NCBI RefSeq assembly: GCF_020687785.1
Contig: NZ_JAJEWI010000010.1
Coordinates: 496,001-560,000 of the forward strand
DNA: 64,000 nucleotides
Source of the DNA: Sphingopyxis yananensis
GTDB lineage: Bacteria > Pseudomonadota > Alphaproteobacteria > Sphingomonadales > Sphingomonadaceae
Direction: 5' to 3'
The translations under genes and the position numbers were made by a program. This document shows, piece by piece, positions 19,154-25,657 of the stretch. The notes beneath the pieces are model-generated. The model was not told the DNA's origin. It ran no database searches and saw nothing but the letters and a program-made list of their open reading frames with translations. The stretch's first letter is position 1, and every line of letters begins with the position of its first letter.

Positions 19154-20410
19154 ATGTCGCGCCTTGATGATTTTTTGCCGAATAGGGGGTTGCCAGTGGC
19201 GATGATTGCGCTGGTCGGCGCTAGTGAAATTTTGCCCGATGGTGGGCTGCGGGCGCTCGCGACGATTGCAGGGGAATCGTTGCTGGAGCGCCAAGCTTTG
19301 CGCCTATCTGACGTCGGGGTTCAGCACATCGCATTGGTGGTGGGCACCGTAACGGCTGAATTGCTCGATATTTGTGATCGTATCCAGCGGCGGGGGATGA
19401 AAATTTCGCCGGTGCGTACACCGCAGGATTTGGCGGCAATGGTCGGTGACGATGATCGGGTCATTTTGGTCACAGATGGGTTGCGCGCTGGCGCGACCCA
19501 TTATGCGGCCATCGCCAAGCCTGGCGCGCCCGCAATATTGGTGACGGGCGATGTTCCGCTAACCCAGAGGTTTGAGCGTATTGACGCTGCGCGCCGATGG
19601 GGCGGTCTGGCGTCGATTTCCGGCGAGATGGTTGCGGAATTGGCGGCGGTTCCTGGTGAATGGGACATGATCTTGACTTTGCTACGCATGGCCGTGCAAC
19701 GCGGGTCGCGTCGTTTATATTGCGAACCTGCGTTGTTTGAACGCGGTGAAATTGCGATCATCTCAGATCGGCCAACAGCAGAACTGATTGAACAGGCCAG
19801 CCTGCAACTGGTTGAATTTGGTGGCATGGGTTTTGGCCGTTCGGCCATTATGATGCCGTTGGTGCGTTTGGCCGGACCTTTGTTGGTACGCACATCCATT
19901 GCCTCCATCTATCTGCCTTATATTACCGGATTTTTATGGTTGATTGCTGCATTGCTTACCGCTGGCGGGTTGGCTGCAGCAGGGGCTATTGTGGCACTGT
20001 TCGGTGGTTTGGCTTTGGCGGCGTGGCAGTTTTTGTCCTCCTTTCGCGCCGAGCGCCCGATACAAGACCGCGCCCGCGAAGCGGTGCGCATCTTCAGTTT
20101 GGTCCTGATTGCCATTTCGCCATGGTTATTATCGGTTGGGGGGCCTGCGAATAAAGTGCCGACATTTGCCGAGGCAGCTTTGGCACCCTGTCTGGCTGGG
20201 TTATTGTTTTTGGCGCGTGCCTTATACGAAGATAGCGGGGATCGTCGCCGCTTTCATTGGCTGTTGCCAGACACGGACCAAGCGTGGCTTATGTTGGCGC
20301 CAGCTTTGCTATTTGGTTTTGCGCCGTTGATGTTTGCCATTTTGCCGCTGTTGGCGATTTTTCAAATCATCATCTGGTTGCGGATGGCGGGGCGTCCTCA
20401 GGCGGTTTAG
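19154..20410 (+). CDS. Membrane protein with nucleotidyltransferase-like N-terminus, function unknown
   Basis: A 418-residue protein I do not assign to a named family. Residues about 15-230 resemble the alternating strand-helix layout of sugar or inositol-phosphate nucleotidyltransferases (GESLLERQALRLSDVGVQHIALVVG, then DDRVILVTDGLRAG), but the usual glycine-rich GxGTR loop and metal-binding Asp motif are not clear. The C-terminal half has about five hydrophobic segments (about 245-300, 312-332, 342-362, 382-412). The CDP-alcohol phosphotransferase signature seen in fused inositol-lipid synthases is absent. It stands 89 bases before the next gene in the same direction. It may be a degenerate relative of such bifunctional enzymes. 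Confidence 0.6.
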   Translation: MSRLDDFLPNRGLPVAMIALVGASEILPDGGLRALATIAGESLLERQALRLSDVGVQHIALVVGTVTAELLDICDRIQRRGMKISPVRTPQDLAAMVGDDDRVILVTDGLRAGATHYAAIAKPGAPAILVTGDVPLTQRFERIDAARRWGGLASISGEMVAELAAVPGEWDMILTLLRMAVQRGSRRLYCEPALFERGEIAIISDRPTAELIEQASLQLVEFGGMGFGRSAIMMPLVRLAGPLLVRTSIASIYLPYITGFLWLIAALLTAGGLAAAGAIVALFGGLALAAWQFLSSFRAERPIQDRAREAVRIFSLVLIAISPWLLSVGGPANKVPTFAEAALAPCLAGLLFLARALYEDSGDRRRFHWLLPDTDQAWLMLAPALLFGFAPLMFAILPLLAIFQIIIWLRMAGRPQAV

Positions 20411-20499: not shown

Positions 20500-21405
20500 A
20501 TGAGTCCGACATCTGTATCACCACCGCGCGGCAATGGGTCGCCGATTTTGTCGGCGCGGATGGCTGAACTTGTTCAATATATGGGCACACCATTATTGGG
20601 CCGTTTGACGGATGAACAAAGGTCGTTGTCATTGGCCATTGCCCGCCGATTGGTGACCAATGTCGCGCGGCATATTGATGCAGATATGGATATGGCGGCA
20701 TTGTGGGGCGACTGGACCCGAGACGGCATTCCGGTCACCGAGGAATTCGCGCGTGCCTGTTTTACCCGGGCCGAAGAACATCGCTGGCGGGTCGCTACCG
20801 AACATTCTGCCTTAACCGTCAATTTGAACAATCAACAGGGAAATCAGCATGTTGCGGCAAGGGCTGGCGATGTTTGGCCAAATCATGCCTTGGCGGCGGC
20901 ATATCAACAATTTCAACTGGCGGACCGCCGCCGCTTTGATGCTTATGGTTATCCGGCATTGGGCATCACGGATATAAGCGATAACTTGTTTCGGCACTTG
21001 TTGAACGAAATTGCGCGCTGGCGGCTTGAGGTGCTGAGCGCCGATCGGAAGTCGTCAGCGGGACTAGGGGACGCAGTCCGCTATGCGTGGCAACAAAAAA
21101 CGGCGGAGAAAGGGATTGACGCGGCCGCCCAAGATTTCTTTCATCAGCTTTTAAACGCCAATCTGCTGTATGATTATGTGAATGAAGCCATTTTGCGCCA
21201 TGAATGGCCCAGTTTTTTGGCCCTCGCCAGTGTCGCACAGGCCCAACGATATGCTGATATGTCGCTATTTTTTATGACAGCGACGCCTGATCAATGGGCA
21301 AAAATTTTAAACCCATTACGTGTCAGTGATGCGGCCAAATTAACGCTGGAAGAAGCGATTATGCTGCTGCCCGCGCGGGCGTCCGCTTCGGATGGCTGGA
21401 TGTGA
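20500..21405 (+). CDS. Mostly helical hypothetical protein
   Basis: A 301-residue protein with no signal peptide and no membrane segment. The composition and heptad-like spacing suggest an all-helical soluble protein, e.g. RMAELVQYMGTPLLGRLTDEQ near the N-terminus and QDFFHQLLNANLLYDYVNEA later. No catalytic motif is visible. GGAGAT precedes the ATG. Its stop overlaps the GTG start of the kinase-like gene by four bases (GTGA), so the two products are probably made in fixed ratio and may act together. A partner or regulator of that kinase-like protein is a reasonable guess. Confidence 0.6.
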   Translation: MSPTSVSPPRGNGSPILSARMAELVQYMGTPLLGRLTDEQRSLSLAIARRLVTNVARHIDADMDMAALWGDWTRDGIPVTEEFARACFTRAEEHRWRVATEHSALTVNLNNQQGNQHVAARAGDVWPNHALAAAYQQFQLADRRRFDAYGYPALGITDISDNLFRHLLNEIARWRLEVLSADRKSSAGLGDAVRYAWQQKTAEKGIDAAAQDFFHQLLNANLLYDYVNEAILRHEWPSFLALASVAQAQRYADMSLFFMTATPDQWAKILNPLRVSDAAKLTLEEAIMLLPARASASDGWM

Positions 21406-22769
21406 GCCCGTCTCTCGTCCGATGCCGTGTCGACGCGCAGGGCATTTTGATATCCGCTGATGCGCCGTTACTCCGCTTGCAGCAATTGACTGGGGCAGAT
21501 CTTGGCGACCCTATGGCGTTGCCAGGCTTGGCTCAGCTTTTGCACTCGGCGGTGGCATCGATGCGGCGAATGTCGCGTGCGGTGATGATGGGGGACGCCA
21601 GATTTTTGATGACGGGTGTTGCGCAAATCACGCCGCACGGGGACGGCGCAGACATTGTCATTCAGGACTGGCGGTCGATAGAACGGGTGGTGACTGAACC
21701 GATCACGCTGCACGCCAGTTTGCCCAGCCCTATGGGATGGAGCTGGGAGACGGATGCCGATTTGAACCTGTTGGCGATGAGAGTGGGAGCATCGGCGCCG
21801 CCGCTATCTGTCGATTGGGATGGACGGCCTTTGGGTGAGGTCCTGCATTTAACGGCGGATCAAGATGGGGATATGCCGATCATAAGTGCCCATGAAGATA
21901 AGCAAATATTCGCCGGACAACAGGCATCAACGGGTAAGCCGCCGAAGACGGTGCATGATATGATCTTGACCGGAAATCCGATTTTTGATGCGAAGGGCGG
22001 TTTGCGCGGTTTTCGTGGGATTGCCGAGCCTGCCCCGCATATGGACATTAATCAGTGCCCGCATTTTCAAAATGACGGTGAAATATATGCGGAACTGCGA
22101 TTTAATAAACGCGTGGACGATGCGCTAAGGCAACCACTTAACCAGATCATCGGCAAGGCAACATCGATTGCGGACCAGTTTGATGGCCCAATACGAGCTG
22201 ATTATGCCCGCTACGCAAGCGATATTGCGCAGGCTGGACGACATTTGCTGGGGCTGGTGGATGATTTGGCAGATGTCCAGAATATCGAAAGCCCGACCTT
22301 CCATCTTGACGCGCAGAATATTGATCTGTTGGATATTGCACAGCGCGCCGTGTCACTGACCGCTAGTCAGGCGGATGAAAAGCACATTGCGGTGCGATTT
22401 TTGGTGCCTGAGCAGGGCTGTGTCGGAAAAGGCGAGCCTCGACGGGTGCTTCAAATCCTGATTAATTTGTTGAGCAACGCCGTGCGATATTCATCATCCG
22501 AAACCGAAATTGTGGTGCATGTCGAAAGATTTGAGGACCGGATTAGCCTTGCTGTATCTGACCAAGGGCCGGGAATTTCCGTGGAGCATCAGCGGGTGAT
22601 ATTTGATAAATTTGAACGTCTGGGGCGGCGAGACAGCGGCGGATCTGGGCTGGGTCTTTACATCGCGCGCAAATTGGCAAGGGCGATGGGCGGCGATTTA
22701 ACCGTAACAAGCCGTCTTGGTCATGGCGCATATTTCACCTTATGGCTGTCGGCGGTGAATGCTGCCTAA
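21402..22769 (+). CDS. PAS-containing histidine kinase-like protein lacking the phospho-acceptor His
   Basis: A 455-residue cytoplasmic protein starting at GTG. A PAS-like domain (about 105-210) ends in the usual LRGFRGIA. A DHp-like segment (about 225-285) reads DDALRQPLNQIIG and later AGRHLLGLVDDLADVQ. Against the standard H-E-L-R-T-P-L-N box, His is Asp and Glu is Ala. The ATPase domain is intact: N-box NLLSNAVRYSS, G1 DQGPGIS, F-box FDKFERL, G2 GGSGLGLYIARK. So ATP binding looks preserved while histidine phosphorylation is not possible at the usual site. No response regulator is adjacent. It could be a pseudokinase that partners another kinase. Confidence 0.85.
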   Translation: MSPSLVRCRVDAQGILISADAPLLRLQQLTGADLGDPMALPGLAQLLHSAVASMRRMSRAVMMGDARFLMTGVAQITPHGDGADIVIQDWRSIERVVTEPITLHASLPSPMGWSWETDADLNLLAMRVGASAPPLSVDWDGRPLGEVLHLTADQDGDMPIISAHEDKQIFAGQQASTGKPPKTVHDMILTGNPIFDAKGGLRGFRGIAEPAPHMDINQCPHFQNDGEIYAELRFNKRVDDALRQPLNQIIGKATSIADQFDGPIRADYARYASDIAQAGRHLLGLVDDLADVQNIESPTFHLDAQNIDLLDIAQRAVSLTASQADEKHIAVRFLVPEQGCVGKGEPRRVLQILINLLSNAVRYSSSETEIVVHVERFEDRISLAVSDQGPGISVEHQRVIFDKFERLGRRDSGGSGLGLYIARKLARAMGGDLTVTSRLGHGAYFTLWLSAVNAA

Positions 22770-22860: not shown

Positions 22861-24147
22861 TTAACGCTGGTCCATGGGGACATAGCTACGCTGCGGCGCG
22901 CCAGTGTAAAGCTGACGAGGACGGCCAATTTTCTGAGCAGGATCCGAAATCATTTCGTTCCATTGGGCGACCCAGCCCACGGTGCGAGCCAAAGCAAAGA
23001 GCACGGTGAACATGGTGGTTGGGAAGCCGATAGCAGACAAAATCACGCCGGAGTAGAAGTCGACGTTCGGGAACAGCTTCTTTTCACGGAAATAATCGTC
23101 GTTCAGCGCCATTTCTTCCAGTTGCAAAGCAACGTCAAACACTGGGTCATTGACTTTCAGTGCTTCAAACACTTCGCGAACCGTTTTTTGCATTACCGTG
23201 GCGCGAGGGTCGTAATTTTTATAAACGCGGTGACCAAAGCCCATCAGGCGGAACGGATCATTCTTATCCTTGGCGCGAGCGATAAATTCTGGAATGCGTT
23301 CTGGACGACCAATTTCACGCAGCATGTTGAGGGCCGCTTCGTTGGCGCCGCCATGGGCAGGACCCCACAGGCAGGCAATGCCAGCCGCCATACAAGCAAA
23401 GGGATTGGCGCCCGACGAACCGGCCAAACGAACGGTCGAGGTCGACGCATTTTGTTCATGATCAGCGTGCAGGATGAAAATACGATCCATTGCGCGCTCA
23501 ACAGCTGGGATGACTTCATATTCTTCGGCAGGAACGCCAAAGGTCATACGCAGGAAGTTTCCGGTGTAGCTCAGATTATTGTCTGGATAGACAAAGGGTT
23601 GGCCGACCGAATATTTATACGCCATCGCTGCAATCGTAGGCATTTTCGCGATCAGGCGGTGGCTGGCGATCATGCGTTGTTGCGGGTCCGAAATATCGGT
23701 CGAATCATGGTAAAATGCCGAAAGCGCACCCACAACGCCGCACATGATAGCCATAGGGTGAGCGTCACGGCGGAAGCCGCTATAGAATTTGGTCAGTTGT
23801 TCATGCACCATGGTGTGGCGCGTGATGGTGTTTTCAAACTTGGCCAATTCGTCGCCGTTCGGCAGTTCGCCATTCAGCAACAGGTGGGCGACTTCCATGA
23901 ACGACGAATGTTCCGCCAATTCGCCAATCGGATACCCGCGATGCAGCAAAACGCCTTCGTCACCGTCGATATAGGTGATCTGCGATTCGCAGCTAGCGGT
24001 CGACGTAAAACCTGGATCGAACGTGAAGGCACCCGTTTGGCCATAGAGCTTACGAATGTCGATTACGTCGGGACCAACCGTGCCCTTCAGGACAGGGCTT
24101 TCGACACTCTTGTCGCCAAGAGTGAATTTTGCGGTCTGATCGGTCAT
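22861..24147 (-). CDS. gltA: Citrate synthase, hexameric type II
   Basis: Condenses acetyl-CoA and oxaloacetate to citrate in the TCA cycle. The enzyme (428 residues from ATG at 24147, with GGGGAAAAA upstream) carries the catalytic set: His in GPAHGGANE, His in [14 protein letters not shown], and Asp in VDFYSGVIL. The N-terminal small beta domain ([24 protein letters not shown]) marks the NADH-sensitive Gram-negative class. It lies 40 bases after gltX on the same strand, so a gltX-gltA message is possible. Confidence 0.97.
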
Positions 24148-24187
24148 ATTTTTTCCCCTATTCTGACGTCGGGATGTGTAAACTGAT

Positions 24188-25657
24188 TTAAGTCCCTGCC
24201 GGATAATTGTGCGCTGCGTCAAGTCGTGCGAGGCTGTTATCTCGGCCCAACAGGGCTAAAACATCAAAAATGCCTGGCGAGACACTCCGCCCAGTCAGCG
24301 CGGCCCGCAAAGGCTGCGCTAATTTTCCAAGACCAAGGCCGGCTTCTTCGCTGGTTGAACGAACCGCATGTTCGATATCTTCTGCAGACCATCCGTCAAT
24401 AGCACGCAATTTTGCCGTAACAGCCGCTAAAATGCCATCGGGTGCGTCGCGTAGTTGCTGCGCCGCTTTTTCTTCAAAATTCAGCGGCGCTGTTTCGAAC
24501 AAAAATAACGCGCTATCAGCAACTTCGATCATGGTCTTCGCGCGTGGTTTCAAAGATTCCATCGCTGCGGTCAACAAGGCCAAATCGGCATCGCTCAGGG
24601 CGCGACCAACTAGTTTTTCGACTCGTGGCTTTGCGATGTCGGCCAGATAGGAATTTTCGGATTCCCGAATATAATGGCCATTCAAATTTTCCAGCTTTTT
24701 AAAGTCAAAGCGCGAGGGAGAGCGTCCGACATTGTCGATCCCGAACCACGCGATGGCTTCGTCGCGGCTGATGATCTCTGCGTCGCCATGGCCCCAGCCC
24801 AAACGCAGCAGGTAATTATTTACAGCCTCGGGCAAGAAACCTAGCTCATCGCGATAAGCGTCTACGCCCAATGCGCCGTGGCGCTTTGATAGTTTTGCTC
24901 CGTCGGCACCGTGAATCAACGGCACATGGGCATAGGTCGGCTCGCGCCAGCCCATGGCCCGAATAAGCGCCAACTGACGAAAAGCGTTGTTAAGGTGGTC
25001 GTCGCCGCGAATGACGTGGGTAATTCCCATATCATTATCGTCGACAACAACGCTTAGCATATAGGTGGGTGTGCCATCGCTACGCAGCAGAATGAAGTCG
25101 TCCAGTTCTGCGTTTTGAACCGTCACATCGCCTTGAACCTTGTCGGAAATGGTTACTTCACCATCTTGAGGGGCCTTGAGACGGATGACGTGCGGTACAG
25201 ATAAGTCACCGTCCGTCCGGTCGCGCCAAGGGCTGCGGACGCGGAAGGGTAGGCGCTTTTCTTGCGCTTCTGTCCGCATCGCAGCCAGTTCATCTTGGGT
25301 CAGGTAGCAGCGATAAGCTTCACCCTTTTCAAGCAGTTCCTGCGCGACAGCGGCGTGCCGATCAGCACGGGAAAACTGGTAAACCGTGTCGCCATCCCAA
25401 TCCAGCGACAGCCACTGCATCCCGTCGATGATCGCATCGATGGCCGCGTCCGTGGAGCGTGCGCGATCCGTATCTTCGATACGCAGCAAAAATTTTCCGC
25501 CGTGGTGACGTGCGAACAACCAGTTGAACAAAGCGGTACGAGCGCCGCCAATATGCAGGAAACCGGTGGGCGATGGGGCGAAACGGGTTACGACCTGTGC
25601 GCCGGTTGCTTCATCTGATTGCGTTGGGTTATGGCTTGCCACGAAGGCCTCTTTCAC
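24188..25657 (-). CDS. gltX: Glutamyl-tRNA synthetase
   Basis: Class I synthetase charging tRNA-Glu, 489 residues. [20 protein letters not shown] contains the HIGH-like motif and AKLSKRHG the KMSKS-like motif. The zinc site cysteines of the E. coli type are not evident ([12 protein letters not shown]), as in the zinc-free form. The first 20 residues are an unconserved tail. It is divergent from comEC with 44 bases between the starts. Whether this copy also serves tRNA-Gln through the GatCAB route cannot be told from this window. Confidence 0.96.

Follow-up and report, generated by a model that had tools for sequence, protein, structure and literature searches.

Ancient loss of the acceptor histidine in a histidine-kinase-like protein paired with DUF2336 in the Sphingomonadaceae

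A histidine-kinase-like gene of Sphingopyxis yananensis, located in a 64,000-nucleotide stretch of DNA (the window), belongs to a clade whose phospho-acceptor His was lost long ago, across most of the bacterial family Sphingomonadaceae. The ancestor of the order had a gene pair, encoding a DUF2336 protein and a kinase whose phospho-acceptor was an ordinary His. On the branch that gave rise to most of the Sphingomonadaceae, the His, the Glu next to it and the motif Thr and Asn were lost, and every ATP-binding box was kept. The resulting protein probably signals by contact, not by passing phosphate. Isolated examples of kinase-like proteins lacking the acceptor His are known, namely DivL and a few others; this is a widespread, long-conserved second alphaproteobacterial case. 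His-less members, an intermediate locus and the working kinase of the ancestral type can all be studied side by side, providing a natural comparison of His-bearing and His-less pairs, and opening the question of what a histidine kinase does after ceasing to be one. The unstudied DUF2336 family gains a first candidate partner. We did not find the His-less clade, the traced His loss or the DUF2336 pairing in the open-licence PMC literature searched, nor any paper there on DUF2336, on DivL in Sphingomonas or on acceptor-His-less kinases in sphingomonads.

The features of the locus are collected in Table 1. The kinase-like gene has a GTG start and its product reads ...RFNKRVDDALRQPLNQIIGKATS..., with DDALRQPLNQIIG as the DHp stretch. 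In alignments with other kinases, Asp240 falls at the acceptor His and Ala241 (gcg, 22122-22124) at the following Glu; a further Asp, Asp239 (gac, 22116-22118), comes just before. These alignments confirm the exchange of His for Asp and Glu for Ala that a first-pass annotation of the sequence had read in a kinase fold. We compared 97 family members, that is, the window protein and 96 loci chosen among the matches listed (29 directly from the scored list, 60 chosen to spread over genera and 7 more). The annotation was also right in finding the N, G1, F and G2 boxes all present: N355, N359, D387, G389, F401, G416 and G418 occur in 97/97 members, G391 and G414 in 96/97, and the window copy retains every ATP-box residue scored in this alignment. 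In Pfam, HATPase_c (PF02518) is matched in 54/54 family members and HisKA (PF00512) at E 0.01 or better in 43/54; in the window protein the DHp is recognisable, though below threshold, by the HisKA profile. PAS models match 5/54 members, and Pfam returned no PAS match in the window copy. The AlphaFold model (mean pLDDT 88.5) comprises two PAS-like domains, a DHp hairpin and an alpha/beta CA domain. The protein is the sole full-length match in its own genome, the next one having 72 bits and 32% identity.

Table 1. Features of the kinase-like locus in the window
Feature	Position	Strand	Evidence
Membrane protein with weak MobA-like N-terminus	19154..20410	+	Pfam, 19.1 bits (cut-off 27)
DUF2336-family gene, 301 aa, 4-base overlap (GTGA) with kinase-like gene	20500..21405	+	Orthologues match PF10098; family profile E 5e-51 (the profile includes the window copy)
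His-less histidine-kinase-like protein, 455 aa (two PAS-like domains, degenerate DHp, intact CA)	21402..22769	+	ORF, Pfam, AlphaFold
First PAS-like alpha/beta domain, residues 1-97	21402..21692	+	AlphaFold secondary structure
Second PAS-like alpha/beta domain, residues 113-211	21738..22034	+	AlphaFold model
DHp helices, residues 225-261 and 266-296	22074..22289	+	HisKA 24.1 bits (cut-off 26.9); AlphaFold model
Asp240 codon GAT at acceptor-His position; Ala241 next, replacing Glu	22119..22121	+	Alignment
CA (ATP-binding) domain, residues 305-451, four boxes intact	22314..22754	+	HATPase_c 97.6 bits (cut-off 26.4); family alignment
Citrate synthase gene gltA (presumed name), convergent neighbour marking the locus	22861..24222	-	Position next to the kinase-like gene

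The fixed feature of the family is the loss of the whole S-H-E motif, not the Asp. The acceptor column of the 97 members contains Pro (44), Gly (15), Arg (15), Asp (5), Gln, Lys, Glu and Ala (3 each), Thr and His (2 each), Ser and Val (1 each); with these 12 residue types it is the sixth most variable of the 61 DHp columns. The Glu that should follow is found in 0/97 members, an absence that is more than chance, whereas His and Glu are both present in 22/22 relatives that keep the His ('His+'). The Ser before the acceptor, likewise 22/22 in these relatives, gives way to Asp (46/97) or Ala (23/97); the motif Thr at +4 is retained in 3/97 members and the Asn at +7 in 7/97. Leu242 and Arg243 are each found in 92/97 members, Pro245 and Ile249 each in 96/97. 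Two residues are newly conserved in the DHp: Arg248 (91/97, versus Ala in 22/22 His+ relatives) and Asn252 (70/97, versus Phe in 22/22). Gln244 was considered as a conserved phosphatase residue and rejected (Gln 50/97, Gly 16/97).

All 15 same-genus relatives examined carry Gly at the acceptor column, so that Asp240 of the window is a local change. Together with the 12-residue column and the frequency of Asp (5/97), this makes Asp an unlikely substitute acceptor, and a fixed one is ruled out; the kinase with a different acceptor that the first-pass annotation had considered gains no support from the Asp. The annotation had proposed to look for an Asp fixed among homologues, and of this only the loss of the acceptor proves common to the family. 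Its other proposal, a pseudokinase family with an acceptor-less fold and intact ATP boxes, extends to the whole set of orthologues, and the same breadth refutes a recent single mutation. As to the control of another kinase, which the annotation had suggested for such a pseudokinase, DUF2336, a gene it had not noticed, is the firmest link that genome context offers. Homologues with a His at this place, which would have pointed to such a mutation, do exist, but only as deeper relatives in the ancestral state and as two members inside the clade (L053 and L055), which have a His without the adjoining Glu. Being scattered within the clade and lacking this Glu, the latter two resemble chance returns. 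They also offer a way, ready in nature, to see whether a His by itself brings anything back.

Where does the His-less clade come from? All 26 His+ relatives (L184, L185, L192-L211 and L301-L304; the residue comparisons use 22 His+ relatives) carry SHEL(R/K)TPLNAIIG, and they belong to other families of the order and a few genera of the same family. At the 20 loci drawn from six further families of the order (L192-L211), the best relative carries SHEL(R/K)TPLNAIIGFA and lies away from gltA. Within the window's own family, a domain search covering 219 genomes gave seven motif-bearing matches at 49-56% identity (in G053, G320, G322, G298, G262, G377 and G414). For three of these seven, all from one genus (L184, L301 and L302), the His+ gene adjoins gltA and gltX. 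A first tree, from which 21 of 150 rows were dropped, placed L184 beside the His-less clade at 67. A second tree with more His+ rows (54 rows in total, acceptor columns removed) recovered the His-less clade at 98/98 and L184, L301 and L302 as its sister at 99/98; the other His+ members of the family and the rest of the order came next, with weaker support (85/80 to 90/96). Since the gltA-linked His+ loci are sister to the His-less clade, the pair's position at gltA predates the disappearance of the His, for which a single event suffices.

Purifying selection on the His-less helices is strong, with a median omega (Nei-Gojobori) of 0.011 in the DHp, 0.066 in DHp plus CA and 0.21 in the N-terminal half, for 12 same-genus genomes that form 66 non-independent pairs and that exclude the window protein. 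The window copy lies on a long branch (1.08) in the second tree and departs from the family at 5 of the 59 columns conserved to at least 90%, of which two, Gln248 and Gly251, belong to the DHp.

A DUF2336 gene is found directly upstream and on the same strand in 86/95 His-less and 26/26 His+ loci, using a profile of 80 genes. Among the aligned upstream genes, 48/69 match DUF2336 with E-values of at most 0.01, the lowest being 1.3e-71. Divergence among these sequences is rapid (they share 9-42% identity with the window copy); the window copy has no match to PF10098 in Pfam, and its DUF2336 kinship rests on the family profile and on position. In the genomes of the nine loci lacking an upstream DUF2336 gene (L021, L022, L023, L026, L044, L099, L189, L190 and L191), the profile found none in eight cases and, in the ninth, a 19.8-bit match in a gene with flagellar neighbours. 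The kinase-like protein can therefore do without DUF2336. Conversely, there is no DUF2336 match in 16 of 17 genomes without a detected His-less copy, a call that depends on the threshold: the seventeenth (G287) turned out to carry a copy that has diverged and moved. There (L359, on C5), a MobA-like gene, a DUF2336 gene and a diverged His-less kinase gene, with Thr at the acceptor position and 137 bits to the family profile, lie together away from gltA. No clear case of a DUF2336 gene without the kinase-like gene was seen in 31 genomes. Further afield, 60 genomes in a sample of 115 alphaproteobacteria have DUF2336, and 3 of the 30 loci read in other alphaproteobacteria have a kinase directly downstream, all with SHELRTPLNAIIGF and in three other families. 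The pairing is thus old, and most DUF2336 genes are unpaired.

The convergent neighbour, which we take to be gltA for citrate synthase, is nearby in 62 of the 66 His-less loci whose flanks span about 4 kb and in 3/26 His+ loci. We tried a CtrA-type TTAA-N7-TTAA site before the DUF2336 gene and rejected it (3/86 His-less and 4/26 His+ loci as raw counts, none at the window). The DUF2336 protein is modelled as all-helical (mean pLDDT 86); a fold search with this model found nothing in the PDB at an E-value of 0.001 or below, and a DUF2336 profile search of PDB sequences gave none.

For the kinase-like protein, the fold does not decide the mechanism, because DivL (4q20, TM 0.76 by target), RetS (6dk8, 0.80 by target) and ordinary kinases such as ZraS (0.75-0.80) fit its DHp-CA part equally. 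The NifL-NifA complex 9qq6 comes third by E-value, with a TM of only 0.30-0.32. NifL of Azotobacter resembles the window protein in layout: both have PAS-PAS-DHp-like-CA with nucleotide boxes and a partner in the same operon. However, NifL still has its His and pairs with an enhancer-binding activator instead of DUF2336; no nifA gene is adjacent at the window locus, where the neighbours are DUF2336 and gltA. According to PMC9866876, NifL binds ATP and ADP without hydrolysing them and forms a complex with NifA, encoded in its operon, that is tighter in the presence of ADP.

The window protein shares with DivL of Caulobacter (PDB 4q20) a HisKA-type fold without the acceptor His, PAS domains ahead of it and an alphaproteobacterial host. 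We reject an identity of the two, given a separate DivL-like gene in the genome and a different place in the tree. The DivL-like gene (L142, G000 C3:480407-481066) reads SYELRTPL, with Tyr for His, and its best PDB match is 4q20 (E 1.4e-32, the next being 9.9e-25); the group with Tyr (L142, L127 and L180) lies apart from the window clade in the first tree. DivL keeps S-Tyr-E-L-R-T-P-L, whereas the window clade has lost S, H, E, T and N, and its motif is degraded on both sides. DivL is also a weak nucleotide binder (57 uM for TNP-ATP; PMC4211667), in contrast to the invariant ATP boxes of the window family. As for kinases of the DivJ/PleC/PdhS type, they have SHEL(R/K)TPLNAIIGFA in common with the His+ relatives, presumably the motif of that class, and the window clade may be what remains of such a kinase, a class assignment based on this motif. 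The window clade differs from them in lacking the SHELRTPLNAIIGF motif, which was seen in none of the genome's kinase domains read (part of its set), and the NCBIfam DivJ model gives the window protein 107.5 bits against a cut-off of 1000.

How could such a protein work? In HisKA chemistry, autophosphorylation and the usual phosphatase reaction need the acceptor, the Glu and the Thr/Asn; with these residues gone, both reactions are unlikely. The kept ATP site and the new DHp residues Arg248 and Asn252 suggest instead a nucleotide-gated contact with a partner. On balance we lean, from sequence comparison, towards a PAS-PAS nucleotide-binding pseudokinase that would act by contact in the way of NifL or DivL, with DUF2336 as its likeliest partner. 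The protein would form a dimer in the cytoplasm, in which a ligand and the ATP/ADP state would be sensed by the CA domain and the two PAS-like domains; the DHp helices would relay the sensed state as a change of shape, not as phosphoryl transfer, and so control a bound partner. By genome position, the first candidate for this partner is the co-encoded DUF2336 protein; the next would be a response regulator or another kinase docking at the conserved DHp face. A wider proposal is put forward as tentative: DUF2336 proteins might be direct output partners of a class of PAS kinases, which the window's family would have rebuilt into a nucleotide-gated, phosphate-free contact switch, the His+ genes at gltA being the intermediate.

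A rather unlikely alternative is a response-regulator sensor akin to DivL, in which the His-less DHp docks a receiver such as DivK, possibly phosphorylated, and relays its state to another kinase. The genome has the DivL-like protein mentioned above and a single-domain regulator (L226, G000 C1:19643-19975) that we take to be DivK-like. According to PMC4211667, DivL itself is the precedent for repurposing a His-less DHp to a receiver, and its Arg553 is important for the DivK contact; Arg243 of the window family matches this residue. The DivJ-PleC-DivK system is described as degenerate or lost in Sphingomonadales (PMC2877005). Yet Arg243 is common in ordinary kinases too, Phe252 and Ala248 have changed to Asn and Arg where receivers dock, a separate DivL is present, and no response regulator gene stands beside the DUF2336-kinase pair.

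We consider it improbable that the protein forms a mixed dimer with an active kinase, either inhibiting it or phosphorylating its His in trans through the intact CA domain. RetS is a kinase-like protein that acts on another kinase, and a mixed-dimer mode has been proposed for RetS-GacS. The combination of an intact CA and a degenerate DHp would suit this mode, as would the good fit to the DHp-CA fold of RetS and the fact that GacS (7z8n) is the best PDB sequence match of the window protein. However, RetS is a hybrid located in the membrane, the genome yielded neither a counterpart kinase nor a close paralogue of the window protein, and no genetic link to another kinase was detected. A working kinase using Asp239, Asp240 or His281 as acceptor is very improbable: an acid is present at 239 in 50/97 members (Asp 46, Glu 4) and at 240 in 8/97, but much of the clade has Ala, Pro, Gly or Arg instead at both positions. 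His281, found in 97/97 members, is equally invariant in His+ kinases (22/22) and is thus no evidence for a new acceptor, and the Glu needed beside an acceptor is absent throughout. A decaying relic devoid of function could account for the long branch of the window copy and for the absence of the pair from some relatives (at 7 of 16 gltA loci in genomes without a detectable copy, the upstream gene directly adjoins gltA). Such a relic is scarcely credible with an open frame, invariant ATP boxes and the omega found in the DHp.

A scan of further genome contigs gave only three distant loci; a scan of viral contigs gave 34, the best with 38% identity over residues 10-449, at a contig end. In the His-less clade, the usual next gene upstream of the pair is the MobA-like gene (56 of 66 long loci). 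Its copy in the window resembles the beginning of a longer protein at another locus (L291), which we presume to be similar to a cytidylyltransferase-phosphatidyltransferase fusion and to lie beside an inositol-phosphate synthase-like gene.
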